IMG/VR virus record: IMGVR_UViG_3300042673_002211 | Span: 1-64,000 of that record | From: a virus | Reading direction: 5' to 3' (one strand) | Length of the DNA stretch: 64,000 bases | Part shown: positions 4,830-45,174 of the stretch, one piece after another | Layout: each line of letters starts with the position of its first letter | How positions within the stretch are numbered: the stretch's first letter is position 1 | The notes under the pieces: model-generated | Told to the model about the DNA's origin: nothing | Databases searched by the model: none | The model's input: the letters and a program-made list of their open reading frames with translations, nothing else | Made by a program: the position numbers and the translations under genes

Positions 4830-4840
4830 TATTTATAATA
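4830..4840 (+). promoter_or_regulatory. putative phage late promoter element TATTTATAATA
   Basis: Exact copy of a motif that recurs before structural genes, here 31 nt before the sheath ATG in the 94-base gap after the glycosyltransferases. No hairpin stands out in the gap. AT-rich background makes single copies weak evidence; recurrence and spacing carry the case. Confidence 0.5.
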
Positions 4841-7959: not shown

Positions 7960-8697
7960 ATGAGCGAATTTAAATTCCCAACCGAAATGGTTGAACTACC
8001 CTCAAAGGGTTTCTTTTATCCAACAGATCATCCTCTAAAAGAAGGCAAATTAGAGATGAAATATATGACAGCTAGAGAAGAAGATATCCTAGCTAATGCT
8101 AACTACATTCAACAAGGTATAGTTTTAGATAAATTACTAGAATCCCTTATTGTTAGCCCTAAATTTAATTTAGATGACTTGTTAATAGGCGATAAGAATG
8201 CTTTATTGGTGGCCGCCCGCATTTTAGGATACGGTTCAAATTATACGGTATCTTACGGGAAAAATACACAAACTATTGATTTATCTAAGTTAGAAAATAT
8301 TAATAATGATTTTACTAATTTAACTGAGGAATTAAATGAATTTTCTTACGTGATGCCCGCTACTAGCACTCACATTACTTTTAAGTTATTAACAAGTAAA
8401 GACGAAAAATCCATTGATAAAGAATTAGAAGGTCTTAGAAAAGTTAATCCTAATGCAGGTGAGTTAACTACTCGCTTTCGCTTTATTATCACCTCAGTTA
8501 GTGGTAAACGAGACATGAGTAGTATAATTGACTTTATTGATAATTATTTTTTAGCTACAGATTCAAGAGCATTTAGAGAACACTATAAAAATACTATGCC
8601 AGATGTGGATATGTCCTATGAGGGGGAGGACGGTCGATTTCGTACGATTCCCATTGGACTTGACTTTTTTTGGCCTGACGTCGCAGACCGTCTCTAA
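7960..8697 (+). CDS. gp26-like baseplate/tail-assembly chaperone, N-terminal (zero-frame) product
   Basis: A 245-residue protein. The opening (TEMVELPSKGFFYP, then MKYMTAREEDILANANYIQQG) is characteristic of the T4 gp26-like family seen in many T4-like phages. It ends IPIGLDFFWPDVADRL and stops at 8695-8697. The conserved region expected to continue it (NFRAALFNEIHEIIFHGNGG) begins at once in the +1 frame. With the tape measure gene next, this matches the arrangement of tail-assembly chaperones that make a short and a frameshifted long form (family knowledge from phages such as lambda and P2). See the following entry for the shift site. Confidence 0.8.
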   Translation: MSEFKFPTEMVELPSKGFFYPTDHPLKEGKLEMKYMTAREEDILANANYIQQGIVLDKLLESLIVSPKFNLDDLLIGDKNALLVAARILGYGSNYTVSYGKNTQTIDLSKLENINNDFTNLTEELNEFSYVMPATSTHITFKLLTSKDEKSIDKELEGLRKVNPNAGELTTRFRFIITSVSGKRDMSSIIDFIDNYFLATDSRAFREHYKNTMPDVDMSYEGEDGRFRTIPIGLDFFWPDVADRL

Positions 8698-8980
8698 TTT
8701 TAGAGCAGCTTTATTTAACGAGATACATGAAATAATATTTCATGGCAATGGTGGTTATGATTACTACACAGTCTATAATATGCCTGTATGGTTAAGAAAG
8801 TTTACATTCAATAAACTCCAGGAATATTATACAAAACAAGCTGAATCTCAAAAACAGCAAACCAAATCCGGAAACACAACTAATGTCATCAATGAAGATG
8901 GTACAGTAAATGCTCCTGAGTTTGCTAGAGTAAGTACTCAATATAATAGTAAAGAACAGAAGGCTCCAAAGTATAATTAA
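8603..8980 (+). CDS. C-terminal part of tail-assembly chaperone, probably reached by +1 frameshift
   Basis: The open frame formally starts at 8603, but its first 20-30 codons overlap and shadow the previous gene. Recognisable protein begins near 8690: SNFRAALFNEIHEIIFHGNG, then YNMPVWLRKFTFNKLQEYY. There is no convincing initiator or leader near that point. A run of seven T (8665-8671) lets a Phe codon at 8668-8670 re-pair one base on (8669-8671) and continue with GGC, giving a fusion of about 339 residues. Alternatives are a -2 slip, a single-base sequencing error in the T run, or a separate coupled gene. Confidence 0.65.
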   Translation: MWICPMRGRTVDFVRFPLDLTFFGLTSQTVSNFRAALFNEIHEIIFHGNGGYDYYTVYNMPVWLRKFTFNKLQEYYTKQAESQKQQTKSGNTTNVINEDGTVNAPEFARVSTQYNSKEQKAPKYN

Positions 8981-26172: not shown

Positions 26173-27882
26173 ATGGACAGTAATTTAGTAGTAGACTACA
26201 CACAATGGGAACGAGGTAAAGACTATCCCGAATTTTTTGATGAAGTAGCCCTTAGTACTATCTCTAGAGGATACTTACTACCAGGTGAAACACCTAAAAA
26301 AGCATACCGAAGAGTAGCTCACGCTGTAGCGTTGCGTTTAAACCGCCCTGAATTAGAGAATAAATTTTTCAAATACATTTGGAATGGATGGATTGGTTTG
26401 GCTAGCCCAGTACTCAGCAATACTGGTACTGATCGTGGGTTACCTATTTCTTGTTTTGGGATTGATACCCCAGATAGTGTCCGAGGAATTGGACTTACTA
26501 ACGCTGAACTTATGCGCCTTACTTCGTACGGTGGTGGTGTGGGAATTTCCCTTAGCCGAATTCGACCAAGAGGTACCTCAATTACAGGAAACGGTAGATC
26601 AGAAGGAGTAGTACCTTGGGCTAAAATCTATGATTCTACTATCATAGCTACTAACCAGGGTTCAGTTAGAAGAGGAGCTGCTTCAGTAAATCTAGATATC
26701 AACCACAAAGATATTCACGAATTTCTTCAAATCCGCAGACCAAAAGGTGATCCTAATAGGCAATGTCTTAATCTACACCAATGCGTTGTTGTTGATGACG
26801 CGTTTATGAAGCGCTTAAATGATCGCGACAGCGATGCTATGTCACTTTGGTTAGAGGTGCTTAAATCACGCGTAGAGACCGGAGAACCATACATTATGTT
26901 TAGCGATAATGTCAACAAAGATAATCCATTGGCGTATAGGATGAATAATCTTGATGTTTCAATGACTAACATTTGTACTGAAATTACTTTACATACAGAC
27001 GAGGAACACTCATTCATTTGTTGTTTATCTTCTCTTAATTTAGCCAAGTATGATGAGTGGAAAGACACTGACTTGGTAGAAACATCTATCTATTTTCTAG
27101 ATGGTGTAATGGAAGAATTTATCCAAAAAACTAATGGTAAAGAATCTATGATTAGATCTCACCGCCATGCTAAAAAAGGTAGAGCACTAGGATTAGGGGT
27201 AATGGGTTGGCATACTTTTCTACAACAAAAGAATTTACCATTCAATTCAATTGCTTCAACAGCCTGGACACACACTATCTTTAGCCAAATCAAAACACAA
27301 GCCGAAGCTGCTTCTCGTAAAATGGCAGTTGAATATGGTGAGCCACTTTGGTGTAAAGGAACAGGTACAAGAAATACACACTTGCTAGCTATTGCTCCTA
27401 CTGTTTCTAACTCGCGCATCAATTCATGTTCAGCAGGTATTGAACCACAACCAGCAAACGTTTATGTTTTCAATGGTGCTAAAGGAACATTTATCGTTAA
27501 AAATCCCGAATTAGAGACATTACTTGAATCTAAAGGACATAATGTAAGTAAAGTATGGGACCAAATTCTAGCAGATAATGGTTCAGTACAGAATTTACCT
27601 AGTTCAATATTGAGTGATGAAGATAAAGAAGTATTTTTAACTTTCCCTGAAATTAACCAGTTAGCTTTAGTTCAACAAGCTGCGGCTCGCCAACGCTATA
27701 TTGACCAAACTCAATCACTTAATGTATCGTTTGACCCAACCGATTCACCAAAATGGATTAATCAAGTTCACATAGAGGCATGGAAACTAGGAATCAAAAC
27801 ACTTTACTATCTACGTACTGATTCAGTGATTAAGGGAGATCTTGGATCTCGCACCGTAGATTGCGTTTCTTGCGATGGGTAG
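26173..27882 (+). CDS. nrdA: ribonucleotide reductase class I large subunit (NrdA)
   Basis: A 569-residue catalytic subunit, shorter than the about 750 residues of E. coli NrdA. It has no N-terminal ATP-cone, so dATP feedback through that domain is absent. Active-site features: ISCFGID and the later CCLSSLNLAKYDEW (redox cysteines), NICTE (thiyl cysteine and general base) and TLYYLRT (radical-relay tyrosines). The C-terminal CVSCDG carries the shuttle cysteine pair, probably reduced by the thioredoxin encoded at 34477. Confidence 0.93.
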   Translation: MDSNLVVDYTQWERGKDYPEFFDEVALSTISRGYLLPGETPKKAYRRVAHAVALRLNRPELENKFFKYIWNGWIGLASPVLSNTGTDRGLPISCFGIDTPDSVRGIGLTNAELMRLTSYGGGVGISLSRIRPRGTSITGNGRSEGVVPWAKIYDSTIIATNQGSVRRGAASVNLDINHKDIHEFLQIRRPKGDPNRQCLNLHQCVVVDDAFMKRLNDRDSDAMSLWLEVLKSRVETGEPYIMFSDNVNKDNPLAYRMNNLDVSMTNICTEITLHTDEEHSFICCLSSLNLAKYDEWKDTDLVETSIYFLDGVMEEFIQKTNGKESMIRSHRHAKKGRALGLGVMGWHTFLQQKNLPFNSIASTAWTHTIFSQIKTQAEAASRKMAVEYGEPLWCKGTGTRNTHLLAIAPTVSNSRINSCSAGIEPQPANVYVFNGAKGTFIVKNPELETLLESKGHNVSKVWDQILADNGSVQNLPSSILSDEDKEVFLTFPEINQLALVQQAAARQRYIDQTQSLNVSFDPTDSPKWINQVHIEAWKLGIKTLYYLRTDSVIKGDLGSRTVDCVSCDG

Positions 27883-27915: not shown

Positions 27916-28113
27916 ATGGAATTTTTAAAAAAACTTTGGAACTGGTTACTAGGACAAACTACGGTAGATGAAAAAATTGAAGCTAAAGTAGTTGAAGTCA
28001 AAAAAGAAGTAGCTGAGGTAGTAGAAGCTGTTAAAGTCGTAGTCAAAGAAACTAAAGACGTAGTTAAAACTGTTAAACCCAGAAAACCTCGTAAGCCAAA
28101 AGCTAGTAAATAA
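27916..28113 (+). CDS. small lysine-rich amphipathic protein
   Basis: A 65-residue protein in three parts: an amphipathic N-terminus (FLKKLWNWLLG), a Val/Lys/Glu helix with heptad character (EAKVVEVKKEVAEVVEAVKV), and a basic tail (KPRKPRKPKASK). It resembles histone H1-like tails in composition, so DNA binding or membrane association are both possible. It is followed by a strong terminator. TATAAATA lies at 27908-27915, touching the ATG, too close to act as its promoter. Confidence 0.6.
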   Translation: MEFLKKLWNWLLGQTTVDEKIEAKVVEVKKEVAEVVEAVKVVVKETKDVVKTVKPRKPRKPKASK

Positions 28114-28136: not shown

Positions 28137-28161
28137 AAGGGCATCTTGTATGCCCTTTTTT
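28137..28161 (+). terminator. intrinsic terminator after the nrd operon
   Basis: Perfect eight-base stem AAGGGCAT with ATGCCCTT around a five-base loop, followed by TTTTT. A TATTTATAATA element follows directly. Confidence 0.85.
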
Positions 28162-28162
28162 A

Positions 28163-28173
28163 TATTTATAATA
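28163..28173 (+). promoter_or_regulatory. putative phage late promoter element TATTTATAATA
   Basis: Exact motif copy directly behind a terminator, 54 nt before the PAS protein. A terminator with this motif right behind it is the layout expected for the start of a new transcription unit. Confidence 0.55.
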
Positions 28174-28216: not shown

Positions 28217-29326
28217 ATGAAAAACTTATCCAAAGAAGAGTTATTAAATAGAATGGAGGCTATTAATCGTAGCAACGCTCTTATTTATTTTGATCTTAAT
28301 GGTTTTATTCTTGGAGTGAATTCTATCTTTTTAACAACAATGGGTTATAAAGAGGACGAACATGAAAAAGTTGTTGGTCAGCATCACAGTATTTTTGTTG
28401 CTCCTGAATATGCACAATCAGAAGAATATAAAAGGTTTTGGAAAAAGCTAGGAGAAGGTAACTTTCACGAAGGTGAATTTGAAAGAATAAAAGCAGACGG
28501 AAACATTATCTATCTCCAGGCAACTTATAATCCAATACTTGATGAAAATGGTGTTGTAACTAAGGTAATGAAGGTTGCTTCTGATATTACTACAACTGTA
28601 ATAGCAAAAAATGCAATTAGTGCAATAAATAAAAGTAATGCTATTATATATTTTGATTGTGATGGTTATATACTAGATGCAAACTCCATATTTTTAGAAA
28701 CAATGGGGTATAACAAAAACGATTTAGATAAAATTGTTGGGAAGCACCATAGTATTTTTGTAGGTTATGAGTATGCTAAATCCGAAGAATATAAAGGATT
28801 TTGGCAAAAGCTAAAAAGTGGTAAATTTTTTGAGGGTGAATATGAAAGGATGAGAGTAGATGGTTCTTCTATTTATTTAAAAGCATCCTATAATCCCATA
28901 ATTAGCAACGATGGAACTTGTAAAAAAGTAATGAAAATTGCTACTGACATTACTGATACGATTACTATTAAAAAGCAAGTAGAAGAACTTTCTAAAAATT
29001 TACAGGTTGAATTAGATAATTCAAATAAACTTAAATTATCAATAGAAATAGAAAAAAATAATGCACTAGAAGACTTAGATGCAACTATAAAAAAAAGCCA
29101 AAATGAACTAATTAAAACTATTGTTAAATCAGCTCTATTTGTAATCATGAGTGTTGGGTTTATTACCACTATTATGTACTCATTTGCAATACTTAATGAT
29201 AGAGATACTCAAATAATTGGTTCAACCTGGAGTAACATGTTTAGCGTACTTTTAACGAATGCATTTTCAATTGTAGGCACAATTATGGGTATTAAATATG
29301 CAACACAAGAAGATAAAAAAACTTAA
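28217..29326 (+). CDS. tandem PAS-domain protein with coiled coil and two C-terminal membrane helices
   Basis: A 369-residue protein. Two PAS domains (about 12-125 and 135-250) are copies of one another; each has a VGxHHSIFV segment, an EYAxSEEYKxFW helix and a final YNPI..KVMK.A.DIT strand. This is the kind of PAS found in chemoreceptors. A coiled coil (about 252-300) follows, then two hydrophobic helices (about 303-325 and 341-360) and a short charged tail. There is no kinase, cyclase or methyl-accepting domain. It has its own promoter and terminator and lies next to the lysis genes. Domain content is well supported; function is not. Confidence 0.85.
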   Translation: MKNLSKEELLNRMEAINRSNALIYFDLNGFILGVNSIFLTTMGYKEDEHEKVVGQHHSIFVAPEYAQSEEYKRFWKKLGEGNFHEGEFERIKADGNIIYLQATYNPILDENGVVTKVMKVASDITTTVIAKNAISAINKSNAIIYFDCDGYILDANSIFLETMGYNKNDLDKIVGKHHSIFVGYEYAKSEEYKGFWQKLKSGKFFEGEYERMRVDGSSIYLKASYNPIISNDGTCKKVMKIATDITDTITIKKQVEELSKNLQVELDNSNKLKLSIEIEKNNALEDLDATIKKSQNELIKTIVKSALFVIMSVGFITTIMYSFAILNDRDTQIIGSTWSNMFSVLLTNAFSIVGTIMGIKYATQEDKKT

Positions 29327-29360: not shown

Positions 29361-29370
29361 TATTTATAAC
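29361..29370 (+). promoter_or_regulatory. putative phage late promoter element (TATTTATAAC)
   Basis: Motif variant immediately behind the preceding terminator and 56 nt before the holin-like gene, repeating the terminator-plus-motif layout at 28137-28173. Confidence 0.5.
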
Positions 29371-29416: not shown

Positions 29417-29656
29417 ATGACATTTTCAGATATTTTCAAAGACAAGAGTGATTTTAACGAAAAAACTATCGTAGGATTTTTATCATTCGCGGTAATGGCA
29501 ATTTTTGCCGGAGCTGACGTAGTAACGGGTATTATGGGTAATCATCTCGTAATCAGTGATACAATTTTTAATTCATTTGTAATCATTACTCTTGGTGCTT
29601 TCGGTATTGCTGAAGCAGGTAAGATTTTTGGTGGAAATAAAAAAGGAGAAGAATAA
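29417..29656 (+). CDS. small holin-like membrane protein
   Basis: A 79-residue protein with two hydrophobic helices (about 19-38 and 48-68) and a charged C-terminus (KIFGGNKKGEE), the size and layout of a class II holin. It directly precedes the endolysin gene, whose ATG overlaps its stop. An AGGAGAAG stretch inside its last codons may act as ribosome binding site for the endolysin. The two-helix end resembles that of the PAS protein upstream in topology. Confidence 0.7.
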   Translation: MTFSDIFKDKSDFNEKTIVGFLSFAVMAIFAGADVVTGIMGNHLVISDTIFNSFVIITLGAFGIAEAGKIFGGNKKGEE

Positions 29657-30267
29657 TGAGTTTAAAAAGTTTACAAGAGAAGATCGGAGTAGGCGCAGAT
29701 GGTGCTTTCGGTCCTGGTACAATGAAAAAAGCTATGGAGTTTTATAAACTAACTCCAGTAAGAGCAGCACACTTCTTTGCTCAAACAGCTCACGAGACAG
29801 GTGGTTTTAAAGCATTTTCAGAGAACCTAAACTACTCCGCCCAAGGCCTGCAAGGTATCTTTGGAAAGTATTTCCCAGGTACTCTAGAAGAATCTTATGC
29901 TCGCCAACCTGAAAAAATCGCTAACCGTGTTTACGCATCTCGTATGGGTAACGGAGACGAGACTTCAGGTGATGGTTGGAAGTTTAGAGGTAGAGGAGCT
30001 CTACAATTAACAGGTAAAGCCAACTACGAGGCATTCGCAAAGTACTTAGGTAACGATGAAGTTTTAAAAAATCCAGATACAGTTGCTACAAAATACGCTT
30101 TTGAATCAGCAATGTTCTTCTTTGAAAGAAATAAGCTATGGGCAATTTGCGATAAAGGTATCAACGATGCTGCTATCTTAGAACTTACAAAACGTATCAA
30201 CGGTGGTACTCATGGTTTAGAAGACAGAAACGCCAAAACTAAAAAGTATTACGAATACGTTAAATAA
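29656..30267 (+). CDS. endolysin, GH19 (chitinase-like) family
   Basis: A 203-residue glycoside hydrolase family 19 enzyme that would cleave peptidoglycan glycan strands at lysis. Seen: AQTAHETGGFKAF with the first catalytic Glu, SENLNYSAQGL with the second, FRGRGALQLTGKANYEAF in the substrate groove, and ELTKRINGGTHGLEDR near the end. The first 25 residues look like a trimmed peptidoglycan-binding motif (KIGVGADGAFGPGT). There is no signal peptide, so release depends on a holin, which the neighbours may supply. Confidence 0.92.
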   Translation: MSLKSLQEKIGVGADGAFGPGTMKKAMEFYKLTPVRAAHFFAQTAHETGGFKAFSENLNYSAQGLQGIFGKYFPGTLEESYARQPEKIANRVYASRMGNGDETSGDGWKFRGRGALQLTGKANYEAFAKYLGNDEVLKNPDTVATKYAFESAMFFFERNKLWAICDKGINDAAILELTKRINGGTHGLEDRNAKTKKYYEYVK

Positions 30268-30273
30268 ACTACT

Positions 30274-30711
30274 ATGAAACTAAGCCTCCCACTACTAGCT
30301 ATCACATCATTTACCGCAGGTATAACCTTTATGTGTTCATATTTTATGAATCTAACAATGGCAAATTCTGATCAGTATCTAGCTATAGTGGGAGTAATGT
30401 TTTTAGATGGAGTATTTGGTATGATTGCTGGTACTAGAAGAGAAGGATTCCAAACACGTAAAGCAATTAAAGTACTAAGAAACACCGTTGCGTGGTTAGT
30501 TATTTTAACAGTTATTTTAATGGTTGAACAAGGCTTTGCTGGTACAGCTTGGCTTAGTGAAGTAATTGTAGTACCTTTTATGGTGTTCCAGCTCATAAGT
30601 GCACTTAAAAATGCATCTATGGCGGGATTTATCCAGATGAGTCTATTAAACCAAATCTTGGATAAAATAGATAAACATAAAGGTATAAGAGATGAAGAAC
30701 CTAAAGAATAA
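30274..30711 (+). CDS. holin-like multi-pass membrane protein
   Basis: A 145-residue protein with about four hydrophobic segments (about 7-28, 34-51, 68-90, 95-115). The GVMFLDGVFGMIAGTRREGF and AIKVLRNTVAWLVILTVILM region resembles phage_holin_4-type proteins, which have a conserved Asp-Gly turn and a basic loop between helices. The C-terminus is charged (DKIDKHKGIRDEEPKE). The position directly after the endolysin supports a lysis role. If both this and the 29417 gene are holins, one may be an antiholin. Confidence 0.65.
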   Translation: MKLSLPLLAITSFTAGITFMCSYFMNLTMANSDQYLAIVGVMFLDGVFGMIAGTRREGFQTRKAIKVLRNTVAWLVILTVILMVEQGFAGTAWLSEVIVVPFMVFQLISALKNASMAGFIQMSLLNQILDKIDKHKGIRDEEPKE

Positions 30712-31750
30712 AATATTTCCGCTTTTAATAGCATTATCTGCCCTGTCAGTTTCTGCTTCTGCCGCTTTCTATTCAGTTAGTGGCCTTAGCAAACTCTTTG
30801 CTGGTGCATCACTTGAGGTCATTATTATGGCTTCTTCGCTTGAGGTAGCTAAACTTGTAATTGCTTCCCTGCTTTATCAATATTGGGATTCCTTAAATAA
30901 AGGTTTAAGAGCATACCTAGCAGTAGCAACTTGTGTGCTTATATTAATCACCTCAGCAGGTATCTATGGTTTTTTATCGGGAGCGTATCAGGAAACAGCT
31001 AATAAAGAAGGTATTGTAACTCAACAAATCACTGCTTTGGAAACTAAAAAAGCATTATACGAGGAAACAAGAGATAATTTTTTAGCAGATAGAAAATCAA
31101 ACAACGAGCTTAGAGGTACACTCTCTAAAGGTTCAACTACCCAATTTACAGACAAAAATGGTAATCTAGTAGTTAAAACAAATAATTCAGCTATCCGAAA
31201 CATCGAATCAACAGCTAAAGAAAACGAAAGACTAGCCACTAAACTAGATGTTGTAAATGATTCTATATTTTCTCTTGAAACACAAATTCTAGAGGTTAAA
31301 GTAAATAGTGAAGCAGCAAGTGAACTAGGACCACTTAAATACCTTTCAGAGTTAACTGGGGTAGAGATGAACCGGATTATTAACTGGCTTCTTTTAATAA
31401 TCATCTTTGTATTTGATCCTCTAGCAATCGCTCTAGTTATAGCAGCAAACTTTGCTTTTAACCAATTACGTTCTAAAGAAGGATATGACATGTATAAAGA
31501 TACTCCATTAGAAGAACAAGTAGAAGATAATGAAGGAACTGATATCTATACTGAAACAGAATTAGAAGAATTAAAAGATTGGGATGTAACCTTAAATGAT
31601 GGTTTAGAAGATGAAAAACAACCAAACAATCCAGAACCCGAACCAGCTAAACTAGAGGACGATAAACTATTAAATAATTCAGGTATCTCATCTTGGCGTA
31701 AGAAAAAATTGCGAGATTATTTAGACGGAAATACAAAAACATATTTTTAA
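30692..31750 (+). CDS. conserved phage membrane protein with coiled-coil loop
   Basis: A 352-residue protein overlapping the preceding gene by 20 nt. Hydrophobic helices lie at about 8-27, 38-60, 72-92 and 225-252. Residues about 105-215 between them are charged and coiled-coil-like, and the last 95 residues are acidic. I do not recognise a function. The basic end (SSWRKKKLRDYL) follows the acidic stretch. Two membrane-pass groups around a long soluble loop fit a scaffold or superinfection-exclusion protein, but this is a guess. Confidence 0.65.
   Translation: MKNLKNKIFPLLIALSALSVSASAAFYSVSGLSKLFAGASLEVIIMASSLEVAKLVIASLLYQYWDSLNKGLRAYLAVATCVLILITSAGIYGFLSGAYQETANKEGIVTQQITALETKKALYEETRDNFLADRKSNNELRGTLSKGSTTQFTDKNGNLVVKTNNSAIRNIESTAKENERLATKLDVVNDSIFSLETQILEVKVNSEAASELGPLKYLSELTGVEMNRIINWLLLIIIFVFDPLAIALVIAANFAFNQLRSKEGYDMYKDTPLEEQVEDNEGTDIYTETELEELKDWDVTLNDGLEDEKQPNNPEPEPAKLEDDKLLNNSGISSWRKKKLRDYLDGNTKTYF

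Positions 31751-43209: not shown

Positions 43210-45173
<1,964 letters not shown>

Positions 45174-45174
<1 letters not shown>

Follow-up and report, generated by a model that had tools for sequence, protein, structure and literature searches.

The window, the whole stretch of DNA that we have analyzed, comprises 64,000 nucleotides of a virus, positions 1 to 64,000 of the IMG/VR record IMGVR_UViG_3300042673_002211 (73,230 bases). The nearest isolate is Flavobacterium phage immuto, a myovirus, whose proteins are the closest to the tail sheath (47.7% identity) and the endolysin (80%). Our subject is a gene coding for a 369 amino acid protein with two PAS domains. It is located between nrdA (26173-27882), which is followed by a 65 aa ORF, and a lysis block formed by a 79 aa holin-like protein, a GH19 endolysin and a Phage_holin_4_1 protein. 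An earlier note on this DNA, made from the sequence alone, had given this position, which is confirmed by the ORFs and by Pfam and PHROG matches. The features of the region are shown in Table 1. In immuto, a protein similar to the 79 aa one, the endolysin and the holin are found in identical order and the PAS gene is absent, so this gene is an accessory of the lysis block. The groES/groEL genes of immuto adjoin its lysis genes; in the window, positions 43561-45174 code for a GroEL-chaperonin-like product, judging from the start of its sequence.

Table 1. Features of the PAS gene and its surroundings, in window coordinates
Feature	Position	Strand	Evidence
65 aa charged ORF, upstream; present in close relatives only	27916..28113	+	
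Intrinsic-terminator-like hairpin upstream of PAS gene	28137..28157	+	
Putative late-type promoter motif TATTTATAA of PAS gene	28163..28171	+	
PAS-PAS-coiled coil-2TM protein, 369 aa	28217..29326	+	ORF call, Pfam, hydropathy, AlphaFold
PAS domain 1, residues ~20-124	28274..28588	+	Pfam PAS_3 residues 34-120; AF2; 3ewk fold match
PAS domain 2, residues ~142-246	28640..28954	+	Pfam; AF2; internal DNA repeat
Continuous helix 246-326, coiled coil into TM1 (~305-326)	28952..29194	+	AF2, hydropathy
Near-invariant C-terminal motif TQIIGSTWSNMFSVLLTNAFSIVGTIMGIKYATQ, turn + TM2, residues 331-364	29207..29308	+	Conservation, hydrophobic moment
TATTTATAA copy upstream of 79 aa/endolysin genes	29361..29369	+	
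79 aa two-TM holin-like protein; family in 26 of first relatives' loci	29417..29656	+	Hydropathy
GH19 endolysin, phrog_181 9.6e-63	29656..30267	+	
Phage_holin_4_1 family holin	30274..30711	+	Pfam/PHROG
352 aa membrane/coiled-coil protein, no function assigned	30692..31750	+	

Pfam, hydropathy and AlphaFold agree with the architecture that had been read from the sequence: two PAS domains, a coiled coil, two C-terminal helices and a charged tail, with no known output. PAS_3 matches two stretches of the protein (3.7e-24; 85 bits, with a curated cutoff of 25.6) and PAS_9 is also detected (5.4e-20). Only PAS families appear above the Pfam cut-offs and nothing is found past residue 250, so that an output domain is absent; there is no HAMP or MCP signalling domain, and the protein stops five residues past the TM2 motif. 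The PAS pair arose by internal duplication: a 295 base DNA repeat (28246-28540 and 28609-28903) is 71% identical. The AlphaFold model, obtained from a 32-sequence alignment with a mean pLDDT of 82, contains PAS domains at residues 6-123 and 125-244, an uninterrupted 81-residue helix (246-326), a five-residue turn and a last helix (332-363). Hydropathy places the membrane helices at about 301-326 and 339-362, followed by the charged tail. Lysines before TM1 and after TM2 predict an N-in/C-in topology. TM2 is amphipathic (moment 0.30, permutation P=0.012), with a polar stripe of Ser, Asn, Thr and Gly on a single face (S336, N340, S343, T347, S351, G354 and G358); TM1 is not amphipathic.

Foldseek matches cover the PAS part only, the best one in the PDB is 3ewk, which corresponds to the tandem-PAS redox sensor MmoS. 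When the PAS domains are aligned with those of MmoS and Aer, the tryptophan of their GxxWxG motif corresponds to His or Phe in the 369 aa protein. The two histidines of GKHHSIF are conserved among relatives, and they are not diagnostic for FAD or heme binding. Binding of either cofactor, which the earlier note had considered, is unsupported.

Promoter motifs had been claimed on both sides of the gene, and TATTTATAA is indeed found at 28163 and 29361. The window contains 12 copies of this motif, where 6 are expected. Of the 11 copies on the plus strand, nine precede a gene start by 14-56 bp: these two and the copies at 4830, 6986, 7924, 8997, 11457, 19809 and 33416. Six of the nine are within the structural-gene region (4.8-19.8 kb), and the tail sheath is among the genes they precede. 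We consider TATTTATAA a putative late promoter motif of this T4-like phage. This reading, together with the upstream hairpin, suggests that the PAS gene is probably a late gene under its own promoter. Terminators of its own had been proposed at both ends; the upstream hairpin is present, but no intrinsic terminator was found downstream of the gene, and terminator-like hairpins in the region, including the upstream one, are not more numerous than in shuffled sequence.

The C-terminal part, residues ~295-369, behaves as a module, which we call MOD. Among candidate stretches of viral contigs, 219 are related to the full-length protein, and MOD recurs in at least 580 IMG/VR contigs; variant MODs were gathered with a relaxed DNA pattern for the C-terminal motif. 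In 41 dereplicated members, residues 329-364 have a mean pairwise identity of 98%, against 68-78% for the rest of the protein, that is, the PAS domains (72-78%), linker, coiled coil and TM1 (70%). Codons differ at 45% of the identical residues in the C-terminal motif, the same as in the rest of the gene. The constraint must therefore act on the protein, which rules out a cause at the DNA level, such as recent exchange or a DNA or RNA element. No match covering MOD exists in the protein-family libraries; phrog_1544 only gives weak matches (E 0.027 and 0.011).

Practically all MOD proteins carry a sensory front end. Among 233 distinct proteins with an intact 5' end, 232 have either a PAS or a two-component-type N-terminus, a count that may miss a few loci. 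Three forms are found: with one PAS domain (about 248 aa), with two (about 369 aa), and with a different short N-terminus and a long coiled coil (184-229 aa). Immediately 5' of the last form lie genes for a PAS-histidine kinase and for a receiver that stands alone. The receiver sequence retrieves 549 relatives, and the order kinase, receiver, MOD appears in nearly all of the 80 loci kept, commonly with an adjoining hydrolase. The MOD start usually overlaps the end of the receiver gene, which indicates translational coupling. The sequences agree with a two-component system: Pfam detects HATPase_c and Response_reg, the H, N and G boxes of the kinase are intact, and so are the Asp, Ser and Lys residues of the receiver. 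AlphaFold predicts for the two-component-type MOD a 148-residue helix running into TM1, followed by TM2. In some cassettes (L272:4166-9959, L324, L282 and L316), two histidine kinases flank a secreted coiled-coil protein of about 200 aa (YPIQTxLKGDSVV...), placed before the receiver and MOD.

In a tree of the MOD ends, the PAS fusions are almost a single clade (all 87 fall within a group of 89, support 0.998), in which forms with one and two PAS domains are intermixed. All 16 genomes checked contain a single MOD, and the receiver is found only in genomes with the two-component form. The clearest case is a single locus found in L281, with kinase, receiver and MOD, and in L051 and L058, with the PAS-PAS-MOD fusion. 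Flanking genes are 79-99% identical, and PAS-PAS-MOD takes the place of kinase-receiver-MOD; between the L281 kinase and the fusions, the PAS domains share 37-48% identity. This replacement at one locus is the strongest evidence that both forms share one job. It also goes beyond the idea in the earlier note: a histidine kinase with a receiver is an alternative driver of this membrane module.

To evaluate the link with lysis, profiles of four recurrent neighbor families (GH19, M15 peptidase, GH24 lysozyme and PG-binding/phrog_3000) were run over 248 dereplicated loci, and only loci with full flanks were counted. These loci had been seeded with PAS, MOD or receiver sequences, never with lysis genes. 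In 62 of the 71 PAS-type loci and 29 of the 51 two-component loci, MOD has a gene of a peptidoglycan-hydrolase family at most four genes away, against 11 of 678 control genes located farther off on the same contigs. These counts come from greedy ORF calling, the loci are not phylogenetically independent, and a PG-binding match need not mean an endolysin. A smaller initial set gave similar figures (61/70, with 13/435 in the control). The proposed association with lysis genes thus extends to many cassettes in other phages, with different types of endolysin, but not to all loci: no recognized hydrolase appears within four genes in 9 of the 71 PAS-type and 22 of the 51 two-component loci. In L051, L058 and L281 the module lies between recombination and replication genes, and no recognized lysis gene was found near it in L039, L059, L150 and L226. 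These exceptions, and the lysis block of immuto without the PAS gene, count against a strict role in lysis. The phrog_3000 PG-binding proteins (L082:4310-5119; L247, reverse complement 8096-8719) are repeatedly found next to MOD and to other lysis genes. This family, listed as of unknown function, is likely an unannotated family of phage lysis enzymes.

The module is borne by hundreds of uncultured bacterial viruses, mostly next to the host-lysis genes. With tblastn, no match to MOD or to the receiver was obtained in 50,697 phage isolate records. Among 84,980 species genomes from GTDB, the MOD motif was found once, on contig L413 (CAJQGZ010000002.1), which belongs to a metagenome bin assigned to bacteria but has the genes of phage contig L200. 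A bacterial origin of MOD is rejected, since its sole match in these genomes is on a phage contig. The best "phage" match of the PAS part, MT836939.1 (L083), was also rejected. Although labelled as a bacteriophage, it is a bacterial contig with MCP and GGDEF-EAL proteins and an ArsR-like regulator. The earlier note knew of no phage protein with this architecture, and we have found no description of one, or of a sensor-MOD system of this kind, in the sequence collections and the open-access literature that we searched.

We slightly favor the view that the 369 aa gene is the one-protein version of a phage-specific sensory circuit which tunes the time of host lysis. The cytoplasmic PAS sensor would read a small-molecule, redox or energy signal, which would travel along the helical coiled coil into the two-helix membrane hairpin of MOD; the output would be its amphipathic, nearly invariant second helix. 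In other phages, a PAS-histidine kinase and a receiver would act on the same MOD. Direct action is suggested by the absence of a DNA-binding domain in the receiver and by its translational coupling with MOD. The identity of the signal, direct signalling from the receiver to MOD, the action on lysis and its sign are what we infer. A more general proposal, which we put forward tentatively and as somewhat short of probable, is that interchangeable phage circuits, either fused PAS domains or a histidine kinase with a receiver, directly gate an effector of two helices found only in phages, and that the metabolic or redox state of the host sets the moment of lysis. The interpretation in the earlier note, that a state sensed by PAS domains gates membrane permeability and controls lysis time, is partly supported.

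At the lysis step, MOD may be a holin-like membrane effector itself or a regulator of separate holins. The 369 aa protein has two TM helices and is genetically linked to an endolysin, two features of holins. MOD has no match among the holin families of Pfam or PHROGs. The likeness to the 79 aa protein noted earlier is confirmed for the layout of the helices but not for kinship: hhalign gives a probability of 1.4%, and under 4% for all neighboring holin-like families, so homology with the 79 aa, c10 or c61 families is rejected. Crude hydropathy counts find no other small protein with at least two TM helices near 19 of the 29 two-component lysis cassettes, which suggests that MOD may be the effector in them. 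Another such protein, or one of a holin family, is present in 48 of the 62 PAS-type cassettes. The cassette of the window, which already has two other holin candidates, is one of these; their presence counts against the proposed role of the gene in lysis. Both observations would fit a MOD that is the holin in two-component cassettes and a co-holin or regulator in PAS-type cassettes.

A specific form of this explanation is an antiholin-like brake, in which the sensed state keeps the 79 aa or the Phage_holin_4_1 holin inhibited until energy or redox collapse. The abundance of separate holin candidates in PAS-type cassettes agrees with it, and condition-sensing antiholins with a partner holin are known from T4 (PMC11413866). 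We find it doubtful, given the two-component cassettes that lack another holin candidate and the lack of sequence kinship between MOD and the neighboring holins.

The main rival to a sensory circuit that tunes lysis, which we judge unlikely, is that MOD is a membrane adaptor. It would bind some membrane protein of the host that is highly conserved, such as one of respiration, transport or division, and alter late host physiology on signal; lysis genes would adjoin it since both are late, envelope-related functions. Holins are small and generally very variable, and the near-invariance of TM2 over very diverse phages is unusual for them; binding to a conserved partner would explain it equally well. 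The copies in a replication locus and the accessory nature of the gene, judging from immuto, also favor an adaptor. The linkage to unrelated hydrolase families far exceeds that of the control genes, however, and two-component cassettes frequently have no other candidate beside the hydrolase, which are points against it. As for ordinary cargo, a captured fragment of a host chemoreceptor (PAS domains plus anchor) with no role in lysis, the PAS domains share 43-45% identity with a PAS-PAS-MCP receptor from a bacterium (MT836939), but this explanation is largely refuted and very improbable: MOD is in no bacterial sequence searched except one phage contig, exceeds the PAS part in conservation and also occurs in the two-component form.

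Lysis timing is usually pictured as an intrinsic holin clock, and superinfection sensing by T4 is the best-known conditional case. A sensory module of this kind, conserved in large uncultured phages and located beside their lysis genes, would imply that phages read the physiology of the host before lysing it. The protein family, its invariant motif and the allelic replacement between PAS fusion and kinase-receiver make this idea directly testable.

Several known systems resemble parts of this one. In Aer, a cytosolic PAS domain is followed by a membrane hairpin. The 369 aa protein is similar to Aer and to PAS-PAS-MCP receptors in having PAS domains of the same type before such a hairpin; it differs in lacking HAMP and MCP domains, in ending just past TM2 and in its phage-specific MOD. 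Class II holins share with it two TM helices, a predicted N-in/C-in topology, a charged tail and an adjacent endolysin, but they have no 250-residue sensor, and the neighboring holin-like families show no HMM kinship to MOD. In T4, holin T and antiholin RI are membrane proteins through which a sensed condition sets lysis time (PMC11413866). T4 senses superinfection through RI, with no PAS domain, kinase or receiver; MOD has been compared with T and RI only through the absence of Pfam and PHROG matches.

In Cellulophaga phage phi14:2, a cultured phage, g078 is a membrane protein with a PAS fold whose gene overlaps an endolysin gene. It has the reverse order, TM-coiled coil-PAS, lacks the MOD motif and appears to be independent. 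PAS sensors beside lysis genes may be more widespread among Bacteroidota phages. This phage is crAss-like (L418:3312-4501, NC_021806.1; the overlapped endolysin is g077). Chryseobacterium phage MA9V-2 has a homologue of g078 two genes away from a GH108 hydrolase.

The nearest functional analogue of the MOD systems is LytST-LrgAB, in which a two-component system that responds to oxygen and glucose controls holin-like membrane proteins (PMC3507848). Both tie two-component sensing to holin-like proteins. LytST-LrgAB is chromosomal and acts through transcription, whereas the phage receiver lacks a DNA-binding domain and its translation is coupled to that of MOD.
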